Notes: a model not told the origin generated them from the letters alone. 64,000 bases of DNA from Bacteroidetes bacterium OLB10 (GCA_001567275.1 LNBX01000026.1:1-64000), one strand, 5' to 3'; shown: positions 855 through 51,020, counted from the first letter of the stretch. Made by a program: numbers and translations.

Positions 855-1661
855 ATGATAACAGAAGATTTTTCAGAGATAAATGGAGAAGGCACAATTC
901 TTCGGAAAACCCAACTTCGTGTTCTCGACATGCTAATAATTGTTGATAAAATATGTAGAAAGCATGCTATTGACTATTGGCTTATTGGTGGTTCCCTTTT
1001 AGGTGCGGTAAGGCACGGTGGATATATTCCTTGGGACGATGATATAGATATTTCTATTCAATATAAAGATCTGAAGAAATTACGCAAAATTCTATTAAAA
1101 GAACTTCCAAAGAGGTATGTTATTCAAGACTATCTTTCAGACAAAAACTACTATTTAGACAGTGTTTTTAAAATTCGAGATACAAAATCACAGTTTTATG
1201 TAGAGCATTACCGTTCTTTTAAAGAACAAGGAATTGTTCTGGATATTGTGCCTATGGAAAAAATTCCATCAATGAAATTTAAACGCTTTATTTTTAGATT
1301 AAATAAACATCCCTATCTGCGCAGAAAAGAACTATCTTTAACCGGAAAGAGCAATAACATTAAAGGGTTGCTTTTAAAACCTTTTGCTGCAATGGCAATA
1401 AAGTTTGCACACTGGTACTCGAATATCAGTACAACTAAAATGTACGGCTATAATTATATTTTTTGGTTAGGTCGCTGCTTTGAATTGCACTTTCACAAGA
1501 GTGTATTATTCCCTTTAAAAGAAATGGAGTTTGAAGGAAATTCTTTTTTTGTTCCAAATAACGTTGATCAATTATTAAAAATTACTTATGGAGATTATAT
1601 GAAAATACCTCCTAAGGAAAACCGACAAGTACACGCAACTCACATTGAAATTTACGAATAA
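855..1661 (+). CDS. LicD-family phosphotransferase
   Basis: A 268-residue LicD/FKRP-type nucleotidyltransferase-fold protein. The diagnostic motif pair is present: [12 protein letters not shown] at residues 45-56 and WDDDID at 60-65, the latter giving the metal-binding aspartates. LicD proteins move a phospho-amine group (phosphocholine in Haemophilus and pneumococcus) from a CDP-activated donor onto a surface glycan. No membrane segment is obvious, so it likely acts on the cytoplasmic face before export. The next gene encodes a LicC-like cytidylyltransferase fused to a PLP enzyme, which could supply the donor. No choline kinase or choline transporter is seen, so the group need not be choline; phosphoethanolamine or an aminophosphonate are alternatives. 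Confidence 0.85.
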
Positions 1662-1682
1662 AATTAATAAATTAAACAGAAT

Positions 1683-3503
1683 ATGCAGGCTATTATTTTA
1701 GCAGCCGGATTAGGTAAAAGGTTAGGCGAATTAACAAAGAAAAATACAAAATGTATGGTAGAGGTAAATGGTGTACCTCTTATAAATAGAATGCTAAAGC
1801 AAATTGATGCTAAAAATTTTGAACGAATTATAATTGTCACTGGTTATGAAGGAAAAAAACTAGTAAATCATATTTCAAAACTGGATATAAGAACCCCTAT
1901 AATATTTGAGAATAATCCGGTTTATGATCAAACAAACAATATTTATTCTCTTTATCTCGCAAAAGATTTATTGAAAGAGAAAGATACCATTTTGTTTGAA
2001 TCAGATTTGATATTTGAAGATAGAGTTTTGGATAAGATATTAGATAATCCTTATCCCAATCTAGCGTTGGTAGCCAAATTTGAAAGTTGGATGGATGGTA
2101 CTTCACTTATCTTGGATGAAAATGATCAAATCGAGAAATTTATTTCACCAAGTCATTTTAAATATGAAGAAATCCCTAATTACTACAAAACTGTAAATAT
2201 TTATAAATTCAGTAAAGGTTTTTCAAATGATTATTATGTGCCCTTTTTAGAAGCCTATTTAAAAGCTCTGGGAAACAATGAATATTATGAACAAGTTTTA
2301 AAGGTAATAACATACTTAGAAGTTCCTCAAATAAAAGCTTTACGTCTGAATGATGAATTTTGGTACGAAATTGATGATATCCAGGATTTGGATATTGCAG
2401 AATCAATATTCTCTAAGAAAGAAGAAAAATTATCTAAGATTGAAAAAAGGTATGGCGGGTATTGGAGATATCCTTCGTTGATTGACTTCTGCTATTTAGT
2501 AAATCCATATTTTCCAAATGAAAAACTAAAATCAGAAATTAAAGCAAATTTTGAAAAACTTATTTCTGAGTACCCATCAGGTATGAGTGTCAATAGTCTT
2601 TTGGCAGGTAAAATATTCAATCTGCATTCATCAAAAATAGTTGTAGGTAATGGTGCTGCAGAGTTAATTAATGCCATCTTAAACATTTTGCCCGGCATTT
2701 ATGGAAGTATTAGACCAACATTTGAAGAATATCCTAATCGGATTGCTAAAGAACAATTGATTAATTATTACCCAGATAATAAAGATTTTTCTTATACAGC
2801 TGCTGATATTATAAATTATTTCAGTAAGCATAATGTTCAAAACCTGCTATTGATTAATCCAGATAATCCTTCAGGTAATTTTATACCATATTCAGATTTA
2901 ATTAAACTTTGTAATTGGACAAAATCTCAAAATATTCGATTCATACTCGATGAATCGTTTGTGGACTTTTCTGAGCAGTCAACCAAAAATTCTATGCTAG
3001 TAAGTTCCGTTCTATCAGAATTTCCTAATCTTATTGTGATTAAAAGTATTTCTAAATCATACGGTGTACCGGGTCTCAGACTTGGTATAATGGCTAGTGA
3101 TGACACTCTACTTATTTCCGAAGTAAAAAAGAAAGTTTCAATATGGAATATTAATTCATTTGCTGAATTTTTCATGCAAATATTCAGTAAATACGAAAAG
3201 TCGTATTTGCAAGGCTGTAAGAGCATTGTCGATGAACGTAATCGGTTATTTCTTGAATTGTCAAAGATTTCATATTTACGTCCAATTCCTTCACAAGCCA
3301 ACTATATTTTATGCGAAGTGAATAGCCCATTCACTTCAAAAATTATTACCTCCACATTATTGGATCGCTTTAATATCTTCATCAAAGACTGCGGCTCAAA
3401 AGATGGATTCAATAATAAGCAATATGTGAGAATTGCCGTTAGAGATACGAATGATAATAATAAATTGATTTATTGTTTAAACTCTTTGACAACGAAAGAA
3501 TAA
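1683..3503 (+). CDS. Fusion: LicC-like CTP cytidylyltransferase + PLP-dependent aminotransferase/decarboxylase
   Basis: A 606-residue two-domain protein. Residues 1 to about 235 form a nucleotidyltransferase domain with the signature LAAGLGKRLGELTKKNTKC (6-24) and an ESD metal site at 106-108, as in LicC CTP:phosphocholine cytidylyltransferases. Residues from about 250 to the end are a fold-type I PLP enzyme of the HisC/CobD type. They show NPDNPSGN (392-399), LDESF (422-426, the Asp that pairs with the pyridine nitrogen), the PLP lysine K458 in SKSYG, and a carboxylate-binding Arg in YVRIAVRD near the C-terminus. HisC and CobD (threonine-phosphate decarboxylase) are close relatives, so transamination and decarboxylation are both possible. 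Fusions of this shape are known for phosphonate activation (the PntC type). With LicD immediately upstream, the inferred job is to make and CDP-activate a phospho-amine. Confidence 0.82.
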   Translation: MQAIILAAGLGKRLGELTKKNTKCMVEVNGVPLINRMLKQIDAKNFERIIIVTGYEGKKLVNHISKLDIRTPIIFENNPVYDQTNNIYSLYLAKDLLKEKDTILFESDLIFEDRVLDKILDNPYPNLALVAKFESWMDGTSLILDENDQIEKFISPSHFKYEEIPNYYKTVNIYKFSKGFSNDYYVPFLEAYLKALGNNEYYEQVLKVITYLEVPQIKALRLNDEFWYEIDDIQDLDIAESIFSKKEEKLSKIEKRYGGYWRYPSLIDFCYLVNPYFPNEKLKSEIKANFEKLISEYPSGMSVNSLLAGKIFNLHSSKIVVGNGAAELINAILNILPGIYGSIRPTFEEYPNRIAKEQLINYYPDNKDFSYTAADIINYFSKHNVQNLLLINPDNPSGNFIPYSDLIKLCNWTKSQNIRFILDESFVDFSEQSTKNSMLVSSVLSEFPNLIVIKSISKSYGVPGLRLGIMASDDTLLISEVKKKVSIWNINSFAEFFMQIFSKYEKSYLQGCKSIVDERNRLFLELSKISYLRPIPSQANYILCEVNSPFTSKIITSTLLDRFNIFIKDCGSKDGFNNKQYVRIAVRDTNDNNKLIYCLNSLTTKE

Positions 3504-3546: not shown

Positions 3547-4317
3547 ATGAATATTCTTCTTTATACAAGTGATAATGAGTATTCTATTAAGGCAATTAAA
3601 TTCTTAATTCAATCTCGTGTGAATTTGTTGGGAGTAGTTTGTAGTGACAGTGATAAAAAAGTCAGAAATTTATGTAGTGAATTTAAGATTCCAATTTTTA
3701 ATGTGAATGAAATAAAAGAAAAACTAAATAAAACTGAAGCAACACAAACAAAAAATTCTTTCTTGATATCATACTTAAACACATCTATCATTAGCAAGGA
3801 ATTTATTAGCTTGTTTGGCCGCAATTGTATTAATTTTCATCCAAGTCCATTGCCGGAACATCGTGGAGTTGCCGGATGTTGTTATAGTATTTTAGAAGGT
3901 TATAAATATTGGGGAGTGACTGCTCATCAATTAATAGAGAAGATTGATGCTGGCGATATTATTCATAAAATGACTTTTGAAATAGAGCCTGATAAAATGT
4001 TTGCATCAGATGTATATCGCATGACACAAGCCAAAATGTTTGAACTTTTCAAGATAGTTATGACTAAAATAGTTAATGGAGAAAAACTTGAATATCAAAA
4101 ACAATCCAAATTAACAAGATTAAGAACACGAGCTGAATTAGAGAAAGTAAAACAATTTTCTGCAAATGACACAAAAGAAATAATTGAAAGAAAAATCCGA
4201 GCATTTTGGCTACCTCCATATCACGGACTTTCTATTTCTATTAATAATACCAATTATACCTTGGTGAATGTTGATATATTAAAAGAGTTATACAAAGTAT
4301 ATAATAACCTAAAATAA
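3547..4317 (+). CDS. Sugar N-formyltransferase family protein
   Basis: A 256-residue protein with the 10-formyltetrahydrofolate-dependent formyltransferase fold. The catalytic triad is intact: N96 and H98 in NFHPSPLPEHRG, and D134 in DAGDII. It lacks the C-terminal domain typical of methionyl-tRNA formyltransferase and is shorter than that enzyme (about 310-320 residues). This suits a nucleotide-sugar N-formyltransferase such as those acting on dTDP-4-amino sugars or on UDP-Ara4N. The cluster context supports a formamido-sugar in the polysaccharide. No matching sugar 4-aminotransferase is visible in the window, unless the PLP domain of the preceding fusion supplies the amine. The gene is AT-rich like its upstream neighbours. 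Confidence 0.83.
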   Translation: MNILLYTSDNEYSIKAIKFLIQSRVNLLGVVCSDSDKKVRNLCSEFKIPIFNVNEIKEKLNKTEATQTKNSFLISYLNTSIISKEFISLFGRNCINFHPSPLPEHRGVAGCCYSILEGYKYWGVTAHQLIEKIDAGDIIHKMTFEIEPDKMFASDVYRMTQAKMFELFKIVMTKIVNGEKLEYQKQSKLTRLRTRAELEKVKQFSANDTKEIIERKIRAFWLPPYHGLSISINNTNYTLVNVDILKELYKVYNNLK

Positions 4318-5602: not shown

Positions 5603-6553
5603 ATGAACATCTCAATAGCCGGTGGAGGTGCCTTCGGAACAGCACTTGCTAATGCTTTAATTAAGGAAAATAAGATAACTATCCACACAAGGAATAAACA
5701 GGTTATTAACGAAATTAATACTTCAAGAAAAAATCCATTATATTTCCCTAATAAAATATTAAGTAAGGCCATCAAGGCAACCGATGATTTACAATCTGTA
5801 AGCAATGCCGATTATTTTTTTCTCTGCATTCCTTCGCCTGCTATTATTGATTTCATAAAGCAGATTACCTTAAAACCAGAATGTGTAATTATAAACGGTG
5901 CGAAAGGGTTCGGTAAGTATGGTAAATTTATCCCTGAAGCTGTTTCTGAATTTTTACCTAACCGAATAGCATCTCTTAAAGGCCCATCTTTTGCCAATGA
6001 GTTTATTTTTGAAATACCTACATCATTTACGATTGCTACCCGTGAAAAAACTGATTTCGAGAAAATAAAATCTTTATTCAGAAGCAATCTTGCGGTATTT
6101 GATTATACCGATGATATCAGGGGAGTAGAGTTGTTAAGTATTCTTAAAAATATTTATGCCATCATTGTGGGTATAGTTGATGCTTACTACAACTCTTCGA
6201 ATGTCAGATTTCTGGTCTTTACCAAAGCACTGAACGAAATAAAAAAGTTGCTTGAAATTTATTCAGTGCACAGCAATACCATTTTCAGATATGCCGGTAT
6301 TGGTGATTTCGGGCTGACTTCACTGAATGACTTAAGCCGCAACAGAACTTTAGGCTTGCTGATAGGCAAAGGATTTTTCGGTCAGAACCCGGGTAATCCG
6401 ATAGTACTTGAAGGTGTAAACGCCATTGACCATATATTCGGACTACTGGACGAACAGCAGTTAGCAGAACTCCCCTACTTTTCAAAACTGCATCACTTAT
6501 TCAATAACCGGATTAATGTGAAAGATTTTGTCAATAATGTTATTTATAACTGA
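5603..6553 (+). CDS. gpsA: NAD(P)-dependent glycerol-3-phosphate dehydrogenase homolog (GpsA-like)
   Basis: A 316-residue dehydrogenase with the GpsA architecture. The Rossmann motif GGGAFGTALAN (7-17) is followed by NGAKGF and GPSFANE, the catalytic lysine K182 in LKNIYAI, and the C-terminal GIGDFGLTS...SRNRTLG segment. It interconverts dihydroxyacetone phosphate and sn-glycerol-3-phosphate. It differs slightly from canonical GpsA (NGAKGF rather than ASKG; GDFGLT rather than GDLVLT), so it may be a cluster-dedicated paralog. That would fit a glycan needing glycerol phosphate. It could equally be the only gpsA of the genome; plsY at 28476 uses the product in lipid synthesis. Confidence 0.85.
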   Translation: MNISIAGGGAFGTALANALIKENKITIHTRNKQVINEINTSRKNPLYFPNKILSKAIKATDDLQSVSNADYFFLCIPSPAIIDFIKQITLKPECVIINGAKGFGKYGKFIPEAVSEFLPNRIASLKGPSFANEFIFEIPTSFTIATREKTDFEKIKSLFRSNLAVFDYTDDIRGVELLSILKNIYAIIVGIVDAYYNSSNVRFLVFTKALNEIKKLLEIYSVHSNTIFRYAGIGDFGLTSLNDLSRNRTLGLLIGKGFFGQNPGNPIVLEGVNAIDHIFGLLDEQQLAELPYFSKLHHLFNNRINVKDFVNNVIYN

Positions 6554-7802: not shown

Positions 7803-8813
7803 ATGACTGACAGGATTAGTTTTGATACTATCAGAAAATATTTCAAAACCGGTTGTCTTAAGCGCTCTGACGGGTTATTGCGTTTTGTAGATTTCAGAAT
7901 TCCTTATACTAAGAATTCAGCGAAAATATTTCAGCTTTATCAGGAAAAAACTGAAAGTATTCAATCCACAAGGATGGATATTCAAACAACATCCTATGAA
8001 TTTTCAAACAGCTTTGCATTAGAAATGAAATTTTTTTTGGAGAAAAATCTCAGTGATAAAATCTTAGGTGCATACACTCACGGAAGCCTTGGAACCGATG
8101 AACTTATCCCTTATAGCGATTTTGATGGCCTTGTAATATTGAATCATGAGGCTTTCAAATCCGCGCGTGATATAAGTGACACAGCTATTGTCCTCAGAAA
8201 ATCAGAAAGTATAATGAGGAAAATGGATCCGCTTCAACATCATGGATGGTTTATCATAACTGAGAAGGAACTCGAAAATTACCCGTCAGATTATTTTCCT
8301 CCGAAATTATTCAGCCATGTAAAATGCCTGACAGGCAAGAACAACTTCAGTATTCGCTTTCGCGCACATTCAGAGGAAGAACAGAAAAAACATTTTTCGG
8401 CATTCTGCAAACATCTTTGTCGAAATATTCAAAATCATCATGCAGGTTCAAACTATTATGATACAAAAAGTCTGCTTAGTGGTTTTATGCTGTTGCCTGC
8501 AATTTATCTTCAGATCAAACATCCGGAAGGTGTTTTTAAAAAGGAAAGTTTTGATTTACTTCGCAAAGAACTTACTGCTGCAGAATATCAAGTGATGGAC
8601 GATGTTTCAGGTATAAGAAGTGAATGGAATTACATTCCAACAAAACGATATAAGAATCTGTTGCTGTCAGATAATGCATTCATGTATCATTACTTTCATA
8701 AAAAATGGTCAGGAAATATTCCGGCATGGCTTGCAACTAAATTAAACCAACTGAAGCCTGAAATGCTGCGATTTGTAAAAACATTAACTGCAAAAACTGA
8801 GAATGAAGTATAA
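7803..8813 (+). CDS. Pol-beta-superfamily nucleotidyltransferase-domain protein, unknown substrate
   Basis: A 336-residue protein with the minimal nucleotidyltransferase signature HGSLGTDELIPYSDFD (93-108): G94-S95 and the metal aspartates D106 and D108. The PYSDxD form resembles GlnD-type and aminoglycoside nucleotidyltransferases. It is much longer than the small MNT antitoxin-type proteins, and no HEPN partner is present. It could transfer an NMP to a small molecule, a sugar or a protein, or it could be a degenerate sensor. Its stop overlaps the start of a second nucleotidyltransferase by 11 nt, indicating coupled expression. I do not recognise a characterised family. Confidence 0.7.
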   Translation: MTDRISFDTIRKYFKTGCLKRSDGLLRFVDFRIPYTKNSAKIFQLYQEKTESIQSTRMDIQTTSYEFSNSFALEMKFFLEKNLSDKILGAYTHGSLGTDELIPYSDFDGLVILNHEAFKSARDISDTAIVLRKSESIMRKMDPLQHHGWFIITEKELENYPSDYFPPKLFSHVKCLTGKNNFSIRFRAHSEEEQKKHFSAFCKHLCRNIQNHHAGSNYYDTKSLLSGFMLLPAIYLQIKHPEGVFKKESFDLLRKELTAAEYQVMDDVSGIRSEWNYIPTKRYKNLLLSDNAFMYHYFHKKWSGNIPAWLATKLNQLKPEMLRFVKTLTAKTENEV

Positions 8814-9774
8814 TTTAATAAGCTATCCGAAGTATGTTGAACCGGATACGTACAGGCATTATTCTGAAAAGCTTTATTCAACAGTAAAAAAAAATCCGGA
8901 TGTAGTGTCCATTTACTCCATAGGACATGTTTCGAATCCCGGAATATCAGATATTGATTTATTAATTTTGGTGAAAGACCAAACAGCCCTGACTAAAAAT
9001 TTCAGAGCTGAAATGAGTACTGAAGAAAAGTATTTATTCCTGCATCAGCCTTATGCCTGTTCGGTAAGTGACTTTAAAAAAACTGAAATGTTTACTTTTC
9101 TGCACAATTATCATCTGGTGTATGGCACTGAAATGAGAACCGGTGCACAACTGAATACTCAGGATACAGAATTGCTGAAAAAGCAAACCGCTCTGGAATT
9201 TCTTCTGAAAATGTACATACAACTTTATGTACAGAAAAAATACAAAACCGTTCGTGTGCGTGATTTACTGCTGCATGGCAAAGCACTGATTTATGATTTG
9301 GAATTTTTAAATATTACAGAAGGCAAATTATATGATTTAATTAAAACTGTAATTGAATGGAGAAATGAATGGTTTAAGAAAACACCTTCTGATCATCAAA
9401 TCATTGATTGGTTTGAAAACTTATATCACGAACTTCATAATTCATTTACAACCCATCCACTTTTCAGTGAAATATATTTCCCGGAGACAAAAACCTATCA
9501 GCTGTCAAAAAATATTAGTCTGAAGGCAGGAAGCCCGCAATTTCAGGTGATACAAAAAGGAATGATAATTCCCTTATTACGATATGTCAAATCAAAAAAA
9601 GCTGTCAGATTACAAAATCGTTTTTGCAGTTTTCGGTTTGATGTGCCAATGGCAAAAACAGACATTCCGCCCATTATCAACGAACGATTCAGAATTGAAA
9701 AACAGCTCAACGAAAATGGCAGGAAATACCTTCGGCACTTACTTACCATGACCTCCAGCCTTAAAGCACAGTAA
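8803..9774 (+). CDS. Second nucleotidyltransferase-domain protein, partner of the preceding gene
   Basis: A 323-residue protein with a pol-beta-like motif YSIGHVSNPGISDIDLLIL (38-56). Asp D50 and D52 are present, but the usual GS is GH (41-42). It starts inside the end of the preceding nucleotidyltransferase gene (ATGAAGTATAA overlap), so the two are translated together and may work as a pair. A region rich in basic residues follows, and no membrane segment is evident. Activity and substrate are unknown. The GS-to-GH change may weaken catalysis, leaving one active and one regulatory member, but that is inference. Confidence 0.65.
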   Translation: MKYNLISYPKYVEPDTYRHYSEKLYSTVKKNPDVVSIYSIGHVSNPGISDIDLLILVKDQTALTKNFRAEMSTEEKYLFLHQPYACSVSDFKKTEMFTFLHNYHLVYGTEMRTGAQLNTQDTELLKKQTALEFLLKMYIQLYVQKKYKTVRVRDLLLHGKALIYDLEFLNITEGKLYDLIKTVIEWRNEWFKKTPSDHQIIDWFENLYHELHNSFTTHPLFSEIYFPETKTYQLSKNISLKAGSPQFQVIQKGMIIPLLRYVKSKKAVRLQNRFCSFRFDVPMAKTDIPPIINERFRIEKQLNENGRKYLRHLLTMTSSLKAQ

Positions 9775-48757: not shown

Positions 48758-49730
48758 ATGGTAAAAATACTTGCAAATGATGGTATTGATGCTGCAGGAA
48801 AAAAAAATATTTGAAGCAGCAGGTTTTCAGGTTTCCACTGACAAAGTAGCTCAGGAACAATTGGCCGATGCATTGAAAAATTTTGATGCCATACTGGTGC
48901 GAAGTGCAACCACAGTTCGTCAGAATGTGATTGATGCCTGTCCCAATCTGAAAGTGATTGGTCGTGCCGGTGTGGGTATGGATAACATTGATGTGAAATA
49001 TGCACGCGACAAAGGCCTGGCAGTTATAAATACACCCGCTGCCTCATCACAATCGGTTGCCGAACTGGTGTTTGCACATCTGTTTACAGGTGTACGTATG
49101 CTGTATGATGCCAACCGCAACATGCCATCGTCAGAGACCAAAGAAACATTTGACAAACTGAAGAAAAAATATTCTGCCGGTATTGAACTGCGCGGAAAAA
49201 CTATAGGCATCATCGGTGCAGGACAAATTGGAAAATGTGTGGCATCCATTGCAATGGGACTTGGAATGAACGTGATGTTTCACCGGCTGAACAACGAAGA
49301 TGTTTCAGTTGACTTAAACCTGCATCCTTCACTCGGTCAGCATAAAATTTCGGTTACGTTTAAATGCGTATCATTCACAAAACTGATTACTGAAAGTGAT
49401 TTTATTACCCTTCACATGCCTTTTGCCAAAGGCAGCCCACCCGTTATCGCCAAAAAAGAATTTGATTTGATGAAACAGGGAGTAGGCATTGTGAACACAG
49501 CCCGTGGCGGAGTGATTTCCGAGAACGATTTAACTGATGCATTGAACAGCGGTAAAGTTGCCTTTGCCGGAATAGACGTTTTTGAAGGTGAACCGCTGAT
49601 AAAAGAATCGCTGCGTAAGAATGAGAAAATTTCGCTTAGTCCGCATATTGGAGGAAGCACCAAAGAAGCTCAGGAACGAATAGGTATTGAACTTGCTCAA
49701 AAAGTGGTTGAATATTTCACTAAAAAATAA
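48758..49730 (+). CDS. serA: D-3-phosphoglycerate dehydrogenase, one extra A near the start
   Basis: The first step of serine synthesis. ATG 48758 reads MVKILANDGIDAAGKK, then a nine-A run at 48799-48807 breaks the frame; removing one A continues IFEAAGFQVSTDKVAQEQ to 49730, about 324 residues. NAD-binding motif GIIGAGQIGK, catalytic Arg in NTARGGV, Glu in FEGEPL and His in LSPHIGGSTKEAQ. It is the short form without an ACT domain, so no serine feedback site is visible. It precedes DUF1015, a conserved neighbour in Bacteroidota. Confidence 0.92.
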
Positions 49731-49775: not shown

Positions 49776-51020
49776 ATGGCTATTTTAAAACCTTTTAAAG
49801 GAATACGTCCAAAAAAAGAACTGGTAAAAAGTATTGCATGCCGCCCGTATGATGTACTGGATGAGAAAGAAGCTCGCATAGAAACCAAAGGCGACCCCAA
49901 CTCTTTTTATCATGTAATAAAACCAGAGATAGATTTCCCTGACGACTTCGACCATTATTCTCCGGAGATTTATAAAAAAGGAAAAGAGAATTTTGAAAGA
50001 ATGTTTCGCGAAGGAGTGTTTTTTCAGGATGGAAAAGACTGTTACTACATTTATGCACAAACAATGGATGGCCGCAAACAATACGGCATAGTAGGTTGTG
50101 CTGCTGTAGATGATTACATCAATGGTGTGATTAAGAAACATGAGCTTACACGTCCGGATAAAGAAGAAGACCGTAAGAATCATGTTCGCGTTTCAGGGTT
50201 AAATTATGAGCCTGTGTTTTTTGCTTACCGTCAGGTGCATAAACTGGATGAGTTGGTGAGCCATATTACTACAGCAACTCCCGAATATGATTTTGTTTCG
50301 GATGATGGCATCGGTCATCAGTTCTGGATTGTGGATAATGATAATGACATACGCATCATTACCGAAGAATTTGCAAAACTTAAAAACACCTATGTGGCAG
50401 ATGGCCATCATCGCACAGCAGCTGCGGCACTGGTAGGCAAAGAACTCCGTGATAAAAATCCGAATCATACCGGAAAAGAAGAATATAATTTTTTCCTTGC
50501 TGTGCACTTCCCGGACAATCAGCTGAAGATTATGGACTATAACCGTGTGATAAAAGACTTGAATGGTTTAAGTGCAAATCAGTTGATTGATAAATTAAAA
50601 GAAAACTTTACGGTTGAAGAAAAAGGTATTGCAGAGTATCGCCCTGCAGCACTACACGAATTCAGTATGTATCTGGAAGGCAAATGGTATAAACTGACTG
50701 CCAAAACAGGAACTTACAAAGACAGCGACCCGATTGGTGTGCTTGATGTAACTATTCTTTCTGAGAAAGTGTTGGCTCCATTATTCAACATTGTGGATTT
50801 GCGTAAAGACAAAAGGATAGACTTTGTAGGTGGTCTTCGTGGACTTGGTGAACTTAAAAGAAGGGTTGACAGTGGTGAAAAGAAGGTAGCTTTTGCCTTA
50901 TATCCTGTTACGATGAAGCAATTGATGGACATTGCCGACAATGACCTCATCATGCCTCCAAAGGTGACCTGGTTTGAACCAAAATTGCGAAGCGGGCTTG
51001 TACTTCATGCTTTAAATTAA
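49776..51020 (+). CDS. DUF1015 family protein (HHRTAAA motif)
   Basis: A 414-residue protein of the DUF1015/COG4198 family. The central motif YVADGHHRTAAA resembles the ParB/SerK-fold active-site HHR region. That fold includes the ADP-dependent serine kinase SerK, so a role around serine phosphate is plausible next to serA. The N-terminus AILKPFKGIRPKKELVKSIACRPYDVL and the C-terminal region GVLDVTILSEKVLAPLFNI match the family. Function remains unproven. Confidence 0.9.
   Translation: MAILKPFKGIRPKKELVKSIACRPYDVLDEKEARIETKGDPNSFYHVIKPEIDFPDDFDHYSPEIYKKGKENFERMFREGVFFQDGKDCYYIYAQTMDGRKQYGIVGCAAVDDYINGVIKKHELTRPDKEEDRKNHVRVSGLNYEPVFFAYRQVHKLDELVSHITTATPEYDFVSDDGIGHQFWIVDNDNDIRIITEEFAKLKNTYVADGHHRTAAAALVGKELRDKNPNHTGKEEYNFFLAVHFPDNQLKIMDYNRVIKDLNGLSANQLIDKLKENFTVEEKGIAEYRPAALHEFSMYLEGKWYKLTAKTGTYKDSDPIGVLDVTILSEKVLAPLFNIVDLRKDKRIDFVGGLRGLGELKRRVDSGEKKVAFALYPVTMKQLMDIADNDLIMPPKVTWFEPKLRSGLVLHALN

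Follow-up and report, generated by a model that had tools for sequence, protein, structure and literature searches.

A LicD phosphotransferase and a cytidylyltransferase–PLP enzyme fusion with a predicted role in phospho-amine decoration of a bacterial glycan

In Bacteroidetes bacterium OLB10 a gene for a LicD-family phosphotransferase is followed by a gene encoding a cytidylyltransferase fused to a PLP enzyme, and this pair probably provides both the CDP donor and the transfer step in a phospho-amine glycan decoration that proceeds from phosphoserine via phosphoethanolamine to CDP-ethanolamine. Coordinates given without a locus number refer to the window, i.e. the whole analysed stretch of 64,000 nucleotides (LNBX01000026.1:1-64000). 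According to the proposed pathway the PLP half of the fusion would decarboxylate L-serine-O-phosphate to phosphoethanolamine, the N-terminal half would form CDP-ethanolamine from phosphoethanolamine and CTP, and LicD would transfer phosphoethanolamine or an N-altered derivative of it to the polysaccharide derived from the downstream glycosyltransferase genes. In most relatives an opine-type reductase is expected to alkylate the amine nitrogen, a 2-oxo acid being the presumed partner, and in the window a formyltransferase would take the slot of this reductase. O-Phosphoserine could be supplied by a DUF1015 protein acting as serine kinase or by serC. All substrates and products in this scheme are predicted, as is the sequence of its reactions, and the main alternatives to phosphoethanolamine are serinol phosphate and aminopropanol phosphate.

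Surface phosphocholine and phosphoethanolamine shape the immune recognition of bacteria. We put forward only tentatively, as possible but short of probable, that these genes belong to a widespread new pathway in which CDP-ethanolamine is made de novo from phosphoserine, the amine is altered by one of several exchangeable enzymes (an opine dehydrogenase, a reductase of the ornithine-cyclodeaminase family or a formyltransferase), LicD performs the decoration and DUF1015 delivers phosphoserine. If true, the phosphoserine route in many gut commensals would mean a decoration for which the host is not needed. The family-wide slot for opine-type reductases is the more novel part of the result.

The gene pair and its genomic setting

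The LicD protein (268 aa, plus strand, 855-1661) matches PF04991 with 135.3 bits against a gathering score of 22.6 (E 4e-39, profile positions 1-227 of 227) and is predicted to move a phospho-amine from a CDP donor to a glycan. With the NCBIfam model of the cholinephosphotransferase Mf1 it scores weakly (82 of 225 bits); Mf1 moves phosphoethanolamine from CDP-ethanolamine in vitro (PMC11982090). After 21 bp the fusion gene follows on the same strand (1683-3503, 606 aa), in agreement with the original prediction of a LicD gene that adjoins a cytidylyltransferase–PLP fusion. The domains observed in the fusion are NTP_transferase/NTP_transf_3 at residues 3-118 and Aminotran_1_2 at residues 313-595 (E 5e-24), its AlphaFold model has a pLDDT of 90.6, and the PLP lysine K458 (codon at 3054-3056, plus strand), which had been described as intact, is observed and invariant in 42 aligned sequences.

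One GTDB scan revealed full-length fusions with 54-61% identity in at least 80 loci/species. Most of them belong to gut Bacteroidales and to Clostridia/Lachnospiraceae, many come from gut metagenomes, and further hosts include an Akkermansia and a Treponemataceae member. The fusion of Fusobacterium vincentii shows 49% identity, and distant forms with 30-33% identity occur in Rahnella, Erwinia, Gloeothece, Priestia and Pseudonocardia. Since full-length fusions recur across so many taxa, the fusion is, as judged from these sequences, an established domain arrangement and not an assembly accident. On Rahnella and Erwinia plasmids (L067, L069) the distant fusion lies beside a CDP-alcohol phosphatidyltransferase, an ATP-grasp protein, an HAD-IIIC protein and an MFS protein, a setting that resembles a natural-product cluster.

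Observed gene associations connect the fusion with LicD also beyond the window. Among the fusion loci LicD homologues account for 52 of 451 genes located at most three genes from the fusion versus 2 of 537 genes farther away (Fisher p 2e-16). Several of the loci that lack LicD carry CDP-glycerol-type phosphotransferases (PF04464) or CDP-alcohol phosphatidyltransferases. The core of the original prediction, namely a phospho-amine that is converted to its CDP form and then handed over to LicD, is upheld by homology and by these conserved neighbourhoods, the activities themselves being predicted.

Contig 26 opens with the window and the sequence upstream of base 1 is absent from the assembly. The G+C content amounts to 30-31% in the first 4 kb versus 35-42% past 6 kb of the window, and the fusion was found in none of three genus-mates of this bacterium. 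Both the low G+C content and the missing fusion in the genus-mates suggest a variable, perhaps acquired, surface-polysaccharide locus. Downstream of the fusion there are, among others, genes for glycosyltransferases and for a Wzy_C-like protein as well as sugar-nucleotide genes. Two neighbouring proteins of this polysaccharide locus are encoded at 7803-8813 and 8803-9774; the first has a weak match to NTP_transf_2 (nucleotidyltransferase) and the second has no match in Pfam or NCBIfam.

The two halves of the fusion protein

The cytidylyltransferase domain (residues 1-245, plus strand, 1683-2417) is LicC/PntC-like, with LicC (1jyk, E 6e-12, 49.1 bits) and the PntC domain of Tde1415 (6pd1, E 1.5e-11, 47.7 bits) as best solved matches. 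By this comparison the two are equally near, and the score gives no choice between them. Tde-PntC contacts the primary amine of AEP through Glu104 and Glu196, and LicC has smaller aspartates there (PMC6697681). Residue E106 of the fusion aligns with Glu104, where LicC possesses Asp, and is invariant in the close fusion family, while Glu196 falls on E203 or Y202 with one residue of alignment ambiguity. Because E106 matches the amine-contacting Glu104 and LicC has Asp, the N-terminal half appears weakly to favour a small primary amine over choline.

Known Lic-1 donor synthesis depends on choline from outside. In Lic-1 (LicABCD) a CDP-alkylamine is likewise formed by a LicC-type enzyme and brought to a glycan by LicD, but here de novo synthesis of the headgroup by the fused PLP enzyme is predicted, and no choline kinase (PF01633) was found in this genome, as expected from the earlier claim that choline genes are missing; judged by this one family the locus does not appear to be of the Lic-1 type. 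The N-terminal half could in principle be a LicC-like enzyme whose product is CDP-choline or a CDP-sugar, the PLP step being unrelated; in favour of this reading LicC can be quoted as the best single-sequence solved match, barely ahead of PntC. Yet this is highly improbable considering the missing choline kinase family, the glutamate in place of the LicC aspartate at the amine site and the fact that the fusion of both halves was kept across several phyla.

Tde1415 (PntC-AEPT of Treponema denticola, 6PD1/6PD2) also carries a cytidylyltransferase N-terminal to a PLP enzyme and has Glu at the amine site, and LicD-like or glycosyltransferase genes are present in PntC loci (PMC6697681). The analogy with PntC drawn in the original prediction is valid for the N-terminal half but not for the PLP half: in Tde1415 the latter belongs to the class-V AEP transaminases and shows no alignment with the class I/II half (Aminotran_1_2) of the window fusion, and 6pd1 covers residues 2-243 of the fusion only. 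Moreover, Tde1415 works with a PEP mutase, and with TIGR02320 none was found in this genome, which is 96% complete and has a contig end just upstream of the locus. PF13714 yielded a single partial match (32 bits). A phosphonate route in this organism was rejected, as pepM was found neither with PF13714 nor with TIGR02320, and within 50 fusion genomes an absence of pepM was observed in 45 and its presence in five (TIGR02320).

These data bear on the aminophosphonate half of the earlier proposal. In the version weighed here AEP would arise by transamination of phosphonopyruvate or by decarboxylation of phosphonoalanine, and CMP-AEP would serve LicD. This version is very unlikely. It is in line with the PntC-like N-terminal half, with related split genes beside aepX/pepM in Bradyrhizobium sp. 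187 and with L109, the only fusion locus that adjoins a pepM operon. Against it stands, apart from the rarity of pepM in fusion genomes and its absence here, the composition of the L109 operon: its pepM is fused to cytidylyltransferase domains of its own, so the fusion is not needed there for phosphonate activation, and together with a TPP decarboxylase and an Fe-alcohol dehydrogenase it looks like a hydroxyethylphosphonate set. On the plasmid of Bradyrhizobium sp. 187 (L071, 6753-10737) aepX/pepM, a PntC-like gene, a CDP-alcohol phosphatidyltransferase and a PLP enzyme stand in a row; this PLP enzyme falls on the serine-phosphate decarboxylase side of the tree described below, and the row possibly leads to AEP and a phosphonolipid by way of phosphonoalanine decarboxylation.

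The PLP domain (residues 250-606, plus strand, 2432-3503) is predicted to be an L-serine-O-phosphate decarboxylase. K458 lies within S-I-S-K and is invariant together with D423, N395, S455, S457 and R466 in the 42 aligned sequences, which means that the Schiff-base lysine and the PLP contacts of a fold-type I PLP enzyme are intact. The former assignment to the CobD/HisC type proved correct insofar as the domain has the HisC fold and is closer to CobD-type enzymes than to HisC, but it remains far under the cut-offs of both models, scoring 154.8 of 290.55 bits with TIGR01140 (CobD, the top NCBIfam model) and 134.6 of 276.55 bits with TIGR01141 (HisC). Its top solved-structure match is 6OUX (E 2e-39; 229 bits with the family profile), deposited under the title 'Structure of SMUL_1544, a decarboxylase from Sulfurospirillum multivorans'. 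Over 347 compared residues 6OUX is identical to a Sulfurospirillum 'norcobamide biosynthesis serine-O-phosphate decarboxylase' encoded in a cobamide operon. By its annotation SMUL_1544 makes ethanolamine phosphate, as reportedly described by Keller et al. in 2016.

When the AlphaFold model was compared with solved structures, 6OUX was best (Z 36.6, 2.7 Å, 357 residues) and CobD structures were tied with it to within 1 Z (Z 36.1-36.5). In a maximum-likelihood tree of 33 PLP domains (with CobD from Listeria and Salmonella, Cj1436 and Cj1437 not being among them) the fusions, SMUL_1544 and rhizobial pepM-linked proteins are found on one side with support of 100/99, and CobD, HisC and 3FTB on the other; inside the SMUL_1544 group no resolved branch indicates the nearest sister of the fusions. 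The motifs DESF and WNIN are common to the fusions and SMUL_1544, while CobD has DEAF and HisC has DEAY. These comparisons favour placing the PLP half with the SMUL_1544-type serine-phosphate decarboxylases, apart from CobD and HisC, the activity being predicted. Thus of the two PLP reactions considered originally, decarboxylation to phosphoethanolamine is favoured over aminophosphonate formation because the domain groups with SMUL_1544 and because pepM is absent here and in most fusion genomes. SMUL_1544 of the norcobamide pathway resembles the PLP half in fold, tree group and both motifs but is free-standing, resides in a cobamide operon and is only about 25-30% identical. Where SMUL_1544 and CobD carry Arg, the fusion family has Lys (K568), and with this exchange the substrate could differ from that of SMUL_1544. 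A free-standing PLP enzyme close to SMUL_1544 is encoded in a genus-mate of OLB10 at L061:9445-10626 with no obvious cobamide genes adjoining; the ethanolamine phosphate that it may provide could serve a different end, perhaps one like that known from the Campylobacter capsule.

Other substrates of the PLP half have to be weighed against phosphoserine. Decarboxylation of L-threonine-O-phosphate in the manner of CobD, leading to CDP-1-amino-2-propanol, is quite unlikely. It would be consistent with CobD as top NCBIfam model and with the high Z values of CobD structures, but the score is far under the CobD cut-off (though the same is true for SMUL_1544 with 174 bits), the tree parts the fusions from the CobD of Listeria and Salmonella, and the motif is DESF instead of DEAF. 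That the PLP half is a histidinol-phosphate aminotransferase in a spurious fusion can hardly be believed: the HisC fold and the bits obtained with the hisC model are opposed by the distance to the hisC cut-off, by the lack of DEAY and the presence of WNIN, and by the setting, which is a surface-glycan locus rather than a his operon.

We presume that Cj1436 and Cj1437 from Campylobacter jejuni share the fold group of the PLP half. Within a capsule locus Cj1437 yields serinol phosphate next to Cj1436, a serine-phosphate decarboxylase (PMC12409886), and this is the precedent for an alternative in which the PLP half is a DHAP aminotransferase that yields serinol phosphate, with CDP-serinol as donor. 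We consider it unlikely, since the top solved match and the tree group indicate a decarboxylase and since DUF1015, with its serine-kinase fold, is found beside the fusion in three loci. The Campylobacter enzymes also provide a capsule with ethanolamine phosphate or serinol phosphate, but there the amine is joined to glucuronic acid as an amide, after which the phosphate is lost, and CDP activation does not occur (PMC12409886).

The amine-tailoring slot beside the fusion gene

In approximately 45 of the 80 loci listed the fusion is followed by an octopine dehydrogenase (PF02317), usually directly and often with a 4-bp overlap, and in about 13 others by a protein of the ornithine-cyclodeaminase/mu-crystallin type (PF02423) that weakly resembles SbnB; these counts are approximate because contig ends cut some loci and the automatic distance is misleading in L102, L109 and L152. 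None of the 80 loci listed carries both PF02317 and PF02423. Among the members of either reductase family are enzymes that couple an amine with a 2-oxo acid or separate the two. PF02317 occurs as a single copy in 19 of 30 fusion genomes, compared with 0/20 fusion-less relatives and 0/14 controls (p 2e-6). In L080 the octopine dehydrogenase adjoins the fusion on the other strand.

Gene fusions were also observed. Cytidylyltransferase, PLP enzyme and octopine dehydrogenase are found in a single frame at L107:8001-10838 and L123:8001-10835 (945 and 944 aa), and octopine dehydrogenase is fused to LicD at L125:9838-12606, L128:9858-11648 and L147:2447-4258. Such fusions, with the cytidylyltransferase–PLP protein in two loci and with LicD in three, place the reductase in the same pathway, and the position beside the fusion looks like an amine-tailoring slot. 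The octopine dehydrogenase–LicD protein of L125 has an extra C-terminal part.

Proteus O-polysaccharides are known to carry N-[(R)-1-carboxyethyl]ethanolamine phosphate as a substituent (PMC9630907). It would be the expected product of the opine dehydrogenase considered here with pyruvate, but for Proteus the resemblance is one of chemical structure only. Genes for this substituent were not described in the literature searched, and for the Proteus O14 gene cluster the main text of the serotyping paper mentions neither ethanolamine nor LicD. An opine-type slot could explain N-(1-carboxyethyl)phosphoethanolamine in glycans, and the link to the opine dehydrogenase would give it a testable genetic basis.

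Neither octopine dehydrogenase nor an ornithine-cyclodeaminase-type reductase was found anywhere in the OLB10 genome. The gpsA-like gene at 5603-6553 was considered as opine dehydrogenase and rejected; it is taken as ordinary because its G3P dehydrogenase C-domain is complete and the genome has no other gpsA. This sole gpsA sits within the surface-polysaccharide locus. Directly after the fusion the window contains a formyltransferase-like gene (plus strand, 3547-4317, 256 aa, PF00551 1e-18) with the motifs N-x-HPSPLP..RG and D. In F. vincentii a formyltransferase homologue (1e-26) precedes the fusion and overlaps its start by 4 bp, and with this single clear counterpart the association is seen in two genomes in all. 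The formyltransferase is a weakly supported candidate for the tailoring slot of the window. N-Formylation of the amine would be our guess; the enzyme may act on an amino sugar instead.

DUF1015 and the supply of phosphoserine

A search for pepM or a phosphoserine source upstream had been recommended. The contig ends there; in the assembled genome pepM was not found, serC is present, and the window itself contains a candidate for a phosphoserine source. This is a DUF1015 protein (PF06245, 380 bits, 414 aa, plus strand, 49776-51020), predicted to be a free-serine kinase. It is distant from the fusion and its functional link is inferred; directly 5' of it lies the gene of a SerA-like D-isomer 2-hydroxyacid dehydrogenase (plus strand, 48771-49730; PF02826 1.5e-42, PF00389 6e-33). 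In F. vincentii serC gives only a 53-bit match, far under the cut-off.

Sequence profiles of DUF1015 found nothing significant among solved chains, 1vk1 reaching E 0.33 with one profile and being unlisted by a second, so that the relationship consists in a fold match. The DUF1015 model (pLDDT 92.3) has nine significant Foldseek matches, all of the SerK/SbnI type (E 2.5e-8 to 5.7e-6). With Z values of 11.1-12.9 versus 4.5 for the next structure (SerK 5x0k 12.9, SbnI 5uje 11.7) and an rmsd of 4.2-6.4 Å over 212-225 residues the SerK/SbnI fold is recognised. According to this model DUF1015 may be a free serine kinase and a general phosphoserine-making enzyme, a good hypothesis that would fit phosphoserine as substrate of the PLP half. 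A family of unknown function that is present in 20/20 genomes would thereby gain a testable function.

In these 20 genomes DUF1015 is single-copy, and in about half of them it lies at most ~4 kb from serC. It directly follows the fusion at L066:15820-16869 and L085:7683-8939, and at L138:1196-2443 it precedes LicD and the fusion.
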